In this document: positions 9,814 through 15,672 of the stretch, one piece after another
Layout of the letters: the number at the start of each line of letters is the position of its first letter
Numbering within the stretch: the stretch's first letter is position 1
IMG/VR virus record: IMGVR_UViG_3300032323_001142
Coordinates: 1-24,655 of that record
DNA from: a virus
Reading direction: 5' to 3' (one strand)
DNA length: 24,655 nucleotides
Translations under genes and position numbers: made by a program
The notes under the pieces: model-generated
What the model was told of the DNA's origin: nothing
Databases searched by the model: none
Seen by the model: only the letters and a program-made list of their open reading frames with translations

Positions 9814-10034
9814 TCCGCTTTCCCCTGCATCATTGCCATCGTTTTCATCCACGTCGCGTAGGCTTCACCCGCGTCTGTGATGCGCTCACCCAAGAAGATC
9901 ATGCCTTCTTTGTCCAGCCTCATGATTTCTTCGTTCTGTGGCTTGAATATAAGGGAACTGTGAGGTGCTATATCAGCGCTGGAGAGAATGCCCGCAGGCA
10001 GGTCTCCAGTGTTCACGATCAATTTAGTGTCCAT
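9810..10034 (-). CDS. Small early protein directly behind the hairpin leader
   Basis: A 74-residue protein starting MDTKLIVNTGDLPAGILS and ending in GMIFLGERITDAGEAYATWM, a C-terminal pattern that recurs in small phage hypothetical proteins. ATG at 10034 follows AGGAGAAAGCA, a strong ribosome binding site, and its TGA overlaps the next start as ATGA. Just upstream lie three inverted-repeat hairpins; the last ends about 20 bases before the start, so its expression may depend on their folding. Function unknown. Confidence 0.7.
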   Translation of the reverse strand: MDTKLIVNTGDLPAGILSSADIAPHSSLIFKPQNEEIMRLDKEGMIFLGERITDAGEAYATWMKTMAMMQGKAE

Positions 10035-10055
10035 TGCTTTCTCCTGTAAATAGGC

Positions 10056-10226
10056 GCCCTCGGCGGTTTGATCGACCGGACCATTTCAAAAGTTGAAATA
10101 GATTGCCGAGGGCAAAAGGGTGGGGCGGTTTTTTTTGCTGAGTGACCTCGTTAATGGAAGTCCCGCCCCATAAAGGGTGGGCAGCGGTCGTTTTGTTGAA
10201 CCGTTAAAAGTAGGTTCCCGCCGCCC
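10056..10226 (-). ncRNA. Three consecutive structured RNA-like hairpins (two are homologous copies)
   Basis: Read on the - strand. Copy A (10226-10179): outer stem GGGCGGCGG/CCGCTGCCC with one G-U pair, stacked inner stem GAACC/GGTTC, loop TACTTTTAAC, and a 10-base A-rich strand before the outer 3' arm. Copy B (10169-10122): outer stem GGGGCGG/CCGCCCC, inner stem GACTTC/GAGGTC with one U-G pair, loop CATTAAC, and a 15-base A-rich strand. Both are followed by CACCCTTT. Inner stems differ in sequence but keep pairing, as expected for a conserved structure. A third hairpin (10113-10056) has outer stem GCCCTCGGC/GCCGAGGGC and inner stem ATTTCAA/TTGAAAT. It could be a regulatory leader, processing or antitermination signal, or a DNA site. 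No known family assigned. Confidence 0.5.
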
Positions 10227-10233
10227 ATTAAAC

Positions 10234-15643: not shown

Positions 15644-15672
15644 ATAATAAAACCAAGGTAATGACATGTCAA
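15644..15672 (-). promoter_or_regulatory. Leftward early promoter (pL-like)
   Basis: On the - strand a perfect -35 TTGACA (15672-15667) and a -10 TATTAT (15649-15644) are separated by 17 bases. The -10 ends 41 bases before the first leftward start codon (15602). Both boxes are overlapped or flanked by the 11-mer operator copies. This is the only strong leftward promoter seen for the block of genes running down to the integrase. Confidence 0.72.

Follow-up and report, generated by a model that had tools for sequence, protein, structure and literature searches.

The window, meaning the whole stretch of DNA that was analyzed, is a 24,655-base IMG/VR virus record, and its - strand carries three structured elements, E1, E2 and E3, in tandem at 10226-10056, exactly filling the interval to which the earlier note had pointed. 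The array is flanked by two small genes on the same strand. Upstream is an 86-aa Cys-rich ORF (10494-10234) that has a partial match to the HNH endonuclease family phrog_374 and ends 7 nt before E1, while downstream is a 74-aa ORF (10034-9810) with a ribosome binding site, AGGAG, at 10045-10041, an ATG at 10034 and no match in Pfam, PHROGs or PADLOC. The neighboring genes form a leftward early operon that includes genes for a Sak4-like annealing protein, a DUF669/ssDNA-binding protein, a Sipho_Gp157 protein and a helicase. The best candidate promoter for this operon, TTGACA-17-TATTAT at 15644-15672 on the - strand, is predicted from an 11/12 match to the sigma-70-like consensus and lies ~5.4 kb upstream of E1. 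The 206-nt array stretch folds with a free energy of -74.5 kcal/mol, compared with -54.7 +/- 4.5 kcal/mol in dinucleotide shuffles (z -4.4), and none of 200 such shuffles was as stable. An intrinsic terminator, consisting of a GC hairpin and an immediate T run, was not found in the array, where the sole match was a 5-bp stem within E3; ACCC separates the array stems from the T runs.

Both of the copies that the earlier note had described on the - strand are present with the architecture it gave them. E1 (10226-10179), which was delimited from its sequence, its fold, a covariance-model match and covariation among its homologues, reads GGGCGGCGG-GAACC-tacttttaac-GGTTC-aacaaaacga-CCGCTGCCC-ACCCTTTAT. 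Its 9-bp outer stem (10226-10218/10187-10179) is followed by the inner stem GAACC/GGTTC (10217-10213/10202-10198), a loop at 10212-10203 (TACTTTTAAC) and an unpaired 3' strand at 10197-10188 (AACAAAACGA). The tail and linker at 10178-10170, ACCCTTTAT, consists of an RCC trinucleotide and a T-rich spacer, and its ACCCTTTTAT is identical in most relatives. E2 (10169-10122), delimited from sequence and fold, reads GGGGCGG-GACTTC-cattaac-GAGGTC-actcagcaaaaaaaa-CCGCCCC-ACCCTTTT. It has a 7-bp outer stem (10169-10163/10128-10122; 8 bp if U10170-A10121 is included), the inner stem GACTTC/GAGGTC (10162-10157/10149-10144), the loop CATTAAC (10156-10150) and an A-rich strand at 10143-10129. The tail and linker of E2 at 10121-10114, ACCCTTTT, is part of a 10-nt direct repeat with the tail of E1, the two occurrences being 57 nt apart.

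The third hairpin that had been placed before the ribosome binding site is also there and is followed by AGGAG, but it folds as a three-way junction and not as a plain hairpin. This element, E3 (10113-10056, - strand), is the best supported of the three, with a covariance-model match and covariation in 9-12 homologues, and reads GCCCTCGG-caat-CTATTTCAACTTTTGAAATGG-tcc-GGT-cgatcaa-ACC-g-CCGAGGGC-GCC. Its outer stem (10113-10106/10063-10056) has 8 bp, or 9 with the 10105-10064 pair, and encloses an inner arm (CTATTTCA.../...TGAAATGG) together with a short hairpin, GGT-CGATCAA-ACC, that stacks on the 3' side of the outer stem. The GCC tail occupies 10055-10053, and in the window E3 ends 10 nt upstream of AGGAG.

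Homologous arrays were found in 22 other IMG/VR contigs by searches with the flanking proteins and with E1 and E3 patterns, and the order of elements is E1-(E2)-E3 wherever E1 and E3 could both be read. E1 occurs once per record, and all E1 stems start with GGG. Covariance model R1, trained on five close E1 copies, scored 90 bits in the window at 10169-10228 and also detected E1 copies with an altered outer helix (1e-7 in L140, ~1e-5 in L100 and L002, 4e-4 in L144 and 0.02 in L145). The corresponding model of E3, built from four close copies (R2), scored 94.5 bits in the window at 10052-10117 and recovered E3 in L088 (9e-10), L144 (4e-7), L002 (5e-6), L140 (1e-5) and L010 (1e-3), with weaker matches to an isolated L088 E3 that precedes a gene (0.03) and to L145 and L143 (0.09 and 0.18, respectively). 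The E3-pattern matches L136-L139 proved to be chance matches upon folding and model search.

Compensatory changes, which the earlier note had expected, are seen in E1 and in E3 when each is compared with its own homologues in other phages. In the alignment of 12 E3 sequences, 97.3% of cells are paired, 11 of the 19 pairs are double-changed, and the covariation score is 0.606, compared with 0.238 +/- 0.030 in shuffled alignments (0 of 500 reached it) and at most 0.128 in slid versions; alignments of nine and ten sequences agree with the larger one. The E1 alignment, with nine sequences, has 99.1% of cells paired, 5 of 14 pairs double-changed and a score of 0.290, compared with 0.155 +/- 0.022 when shuffled (0 of 500) and at most 0.113 when slid. 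The E1 covariation is more modest than that of E3, and the inner stem adds little to its score. Both alignments were fitted to the model, which favors structure, although the margin over the slid controls is still large. E2 is almost invariant in L008, L009, L013 and L092, so the covariation evidence is that of E1 and E3. Of 344 pairs, 39 are G-U, which is consistent with the - strand being the one that acts as RNA.

Whether the three elements are copies of one another is a separate question. The inner stems of E1 and E2 differ in bases while both pair, and this had been read as covariation between homologues. By itself the difference does not make that case: R1 ranks E2 first among its non-E1 matches, yet at 13.3 bits (E ~1), which is chance level, and the E3 model scores E1 at only 11 bits, which is chance level as well. 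E1, E2 and E3 are alike in layout, in the ACCC tail with a T-rich linker and in a loose YTCRR(T)CAAAA 3' strand. The view that E1 and E2 are two copies of a single element is thus only weakly supported by the sequences, and in light of the cross-scores we treat E1, E2 and E3 as a set with common ends and not as proven paralogues. Certain other readings of the elements were set aside. A pseudoknot between the loop and 3' strand of E1 can be drawn in some copies and is not conserved, TTTTAAC of E1 matches boxA only partially, and the short ORFs that start from an ATG before many elements were found upon inspection to have no Shine-Dalgarno sequence, non-conserved frames and stops inside.

The array appears to be new. 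In the window and ten relatives, no Rfam 15 family reached the gathering threshold. The only family scoring at the E3/ribosome-binding-site region was freshwater-2 RNA (RF02980), which was dismissed since its 17.9 bits (gathering score 49.9; E 2.1) are at chance level. ARAGORN found no tRNA or tmRNA in the window or in L002-L015, blastn against 50,697 annotated phage records gave only 20-30-nt chance matches, no E3 was found in EBPR siphovirus 2 (which, through one tail protein with 29% identity, is the closest annotated relative), and a search of the open-access literature found no description of these RNAs. The earlier suggestion of an undescribed phage RNA element is therefore borne out by tandem homologues with compensatory changes in the other contigs and by the lack of an Rfam match. 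Judging from paired bases that have changed together across related uncultured phages, we consider the E1-E3 array to be a set of real, so far undescribed phage RNA elements. The E1 pattern matched five times among GTDB genomes (one genome per species), and since none of these matches was backed by the E1 model, no prophage or host was found. A sequence resembling a tRNA/tmRNA 3' end (GGGCGGTTCGACTCCGCCACGCGCCTCCACCA) in L009 (5341-5410), L094 (3263-3330) and L096 (8782-8850) is possibly an integration site and could identify the host.

The genes around the array change from one relative to another. The upstream gene is a member of one and the same Cys-rich family in two groups of contigs, that of the window and the divergent group L004/L143/L145, and is otherwise different: L100/L101/L103 share one gene, L102 has another and L092/L140 a third. 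The downstream gene also differs between relatives, and in many of them E3 is followed by several hundred nt of further structured modules before the next gene. Modules have been gained and lost between close relatives.

Several of these sequences have features of their own. A conserved structured module of ~250 nt follows E3 at about 3374-3626 in L010, 3436-3689 in L013, 885-1124 in L088, 2734-2985 in L004 and 750-986 in L145; it has apparently covarying hairpins (GGGTTRCATGGCCC; GGATTAAGTCG...CGACACTGATCC), a terminal GCTGC-GCGA-CTGGTAA-TCGT-GGGCAGC-ACC and no Rfam match. In L088 (contig 3300042946_000412), a tRNA/tmRNA-like fold lies within the same array at ~563-766 on the + strand. It has a 7-bp acceptor stem (GGAGCGG/CCGCTCC) followed by ACC, a D-like arm, a T arm with the loop TTCGACT and a ~150-nt arm closed by ACGGT/ACCGT, and its flanks, UUUAC|G...C|ACC|CUAUUU, are like those of the array elements. 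This fold has no convincing tag frame, ARAGORN with default settings was negative, and the Rfam permuted tmRNA model gave only 22.6 bits. A Gly/Tyr/Asp/Asn-rich repeat ORF (GYGYGNG..DG) is found downstream of the array at about 10047-10420 in L100, 2612-2960 in L002 and 1060-1300 in L092, and non-coding DNA at 3580-4080 in L132 (contig 3300044974_000239) contains repeated AGAAACCCGTTCTA...GACGGAGGGAGCGCG units.

The ends of the elements are more constant than their helices. Counted over 25 distinct element sequences, which are related by descent so that the counts are not independent, the base at -1 is a pyrimidine in all 25 (23 U, 2 C), the terminal pair is G-C in all 25, and a 3' RCC follows in 20 (ACC, ACC and GCC in E1, E2 and E3 of the window). 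The five exceptions are GAC in E1 of L004, UCC in E3 of L100 and AAC in three related E3s, and for two of them a relative (L143, L144) has RCC in the corresponding position. Among 933 further strong hairpins in these contigs, 30 have the full end pattern in either of two registers; the background is 5-9% for RCC and 1-3% for the full pattern. The pattern is retained while most helix pairs change. In many elements U-1 is able to pair with A73, which could move the boundary outward by one pair, and the terminal A of RCC(A) is not encoded. Bacterial RNase P contacts U-1, G+1/C72 and RCC (PMC11143913, PMC12710915) and measures a 12-bp stack (PMC11143913), and a non-tRNA pseudoknot substrate of the enzyme likewise needs a 3' RCCA (PMC12710915). 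In E3 of L009 and L092, the 8-bp outer stem and a 4-bp stem with a 7-nt loop make a 12-bp stack that is contiguous on the 3' strand, much like a tRNA acceptor/T arm; in the window-type E3, outer helix plus short stem amount to 11-12 bp with little or no break in the 3' strand. The short stem with the loop CGATCAA covaries. E1 and E2 have the other topology: their helices form a 13-14-bp stack whose unbroken strand is the 5' one, whereas in tRNA it is the 3' one, and they lack a T-loop. E3 thus recalls a tRNA or tmRNA in its outer helix, arm, T-arm-like short hairpin with a 7-nt loop and 3' RCC, whereas the array elements are negative with ARAGORN and have no cloverleaf, anticodon arm or canonical T-loop.

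What might such an array do? Our tentative preference, held with less than even confidence, is that the elements are tRNA-like and are cut by RNase P from the leftward early transcript, which would yield small RNAs and segment the mRNA. According to this proposal, the leftward early transcript of these uncultured phages includes the array, and host RNase P would read the G-C-closed outer helix and 3' RCC of each element and cut just 5' of it, at the U|G boundary. Exonucleases would then trim the T-rich linker beyond the RCC. E1, E2 and E3 would be released as discrete RNAs of ~50-60 nt, the long early mRNA would be segmented by the cutting, and a lone or last element may remain at the 5' end of the next gene as a protective hairpin. 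The proposal draws on the match of the element ends to contacts of bacterial RNase P, on the tRNA-like stack of E3 and on known non-tRNA phage substrates. The five tails without RCC, the optional U-1/A73 pair, the topology of E1 and E2 and the negative ARAGORN results count against it. The presence of different upstream and downstream genes among relatives, which makes the array independent of particular genes, was also counted in its favor, as was the tRNA-like RNA with the same flanks inside the L088 array. Non-tRNA phage RNAs processed by RNase P include M3 RNA, C4 antisense RNA and T4 gene 32 mRNA, which are cut by the host enzyme from longer transcripts (PMC11143913). The array shares G+1/C72, U-1 and RCC with these RNAs and differs from them in being tandem, in having several element classes and no Rfam homology, and in that its cleavage is predicted from sequence.

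Other explanations are compatible with part of this evidence. The array lies between genes of one long operon and has stable GC stems and T-rich linkers, so it may instead act only in cis as a set of intergenic hairpins for mRNA stabilization or processing, without RNase P or free small RNAs; the stems would block exonucleases, or RNase III/E would cut the T-rich linkers, and either would determine the ratio in which the flanking genes' products are made. Such a role would suit the lone E3 found ahead of a start codon in L088 (1376-1443). Generic stabilizers, however, need neither conserved unpaired motifs (TTTTAAC, CAAAACGA, CGATCAA) nor a G...C|RCC boundary that stays fixed as the helices vary, and we regard this explanation as somewhat unlikely. 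The same lone E3, the 10-nt spacing between E3 and AGGAG in the window and a conserved gene after E1-E3 in L092 and L100-L102 could also point to a cis-regulatory leader of the downstream gene, for example a protein- or ligand-responsive translation switch, and the earlier note had proposed a leader controlling accessory genes. The downstream gene changes among relatives, though, and in L008, L009, L010, L013 and L143 several hundred nt of additional structured sequence lie between it and E3; nor does the fold show any evident alternative pairing that would sequester the ribosome binding site. A leader is conceivable but distinctly unlikely.

Antitermination, another of the functions raised earlier, would have the array itself load RNA polymerase for read-through of the leftward operon, and it gains little from the comparison with the put RNA of phage HK022, a pair of closely spaced stem-loops that antiterminates without other factors through the zinc-binding domain of RNA polymerase. 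Both have neighboring stem-loops of similar size (~50 nt) within an early phage operon, and TTTTAAC of E1 loosely recalls boxA. The published put elements are placed immediately after PL or ~270 nt after PR (PMC9378689), whereas the array is ~5.4 kb from its likely promoter and also differs in its linkers of 8-13 nt and in its number of elements, three or more; in addition, E3 stands alone in one relative. We find a put-like function very improbable. Hardly any probability attaches to a DNA-level element, in which hairpins in single-stranded DNA would serve as recombination or replication sites and explain the swapping of modules between close relatives: the G-U wobble pairs of the - strand would be A-C mismatches in the other sense, there are almost no unpaired cells, and no recombinase was seen next to the array within the window. 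A type III toxin-antitoxin system was also considered, as ToxI likewise has tandem short structured RNAs before a small gene. This reading was unsupported, since no ToxN-family toxin lies beside the array (six neighboring proteins were negative in PADLOC, and Pfam and PHROGs gave no toxin), and no pseudoknot is supported.

Among the functions named in the earlier note, a processed small RNA fits best because of the RNase P-like boundaries, the independence from neighboring genes and the further structured modules in the arrays of relatives. It is further imaginable, if rather doubtful, that the arrays define a new class of tRNA-like small RNAs that are encoded in swappable tandem arrays, are matured by host RNase P and act in trans in early infection, e.g., by decoying host enzymes away from tRNAs.

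Structured RNAs of uncultured phages are poorly catalogued, and the array provides a covariation-backed set, without an Rfam match, in at least 23 viral contigs. Its boundaries predict RNase P cleavage at three bonds, 10227|10226, 10170|10169 and 10114|10113. If the predicted processing is true, the array would add to the few phage RNAs other than tRNAs that RNase P is known to process, and would suggest that modular arrays of tRNA-like RNAs occur in some phages.
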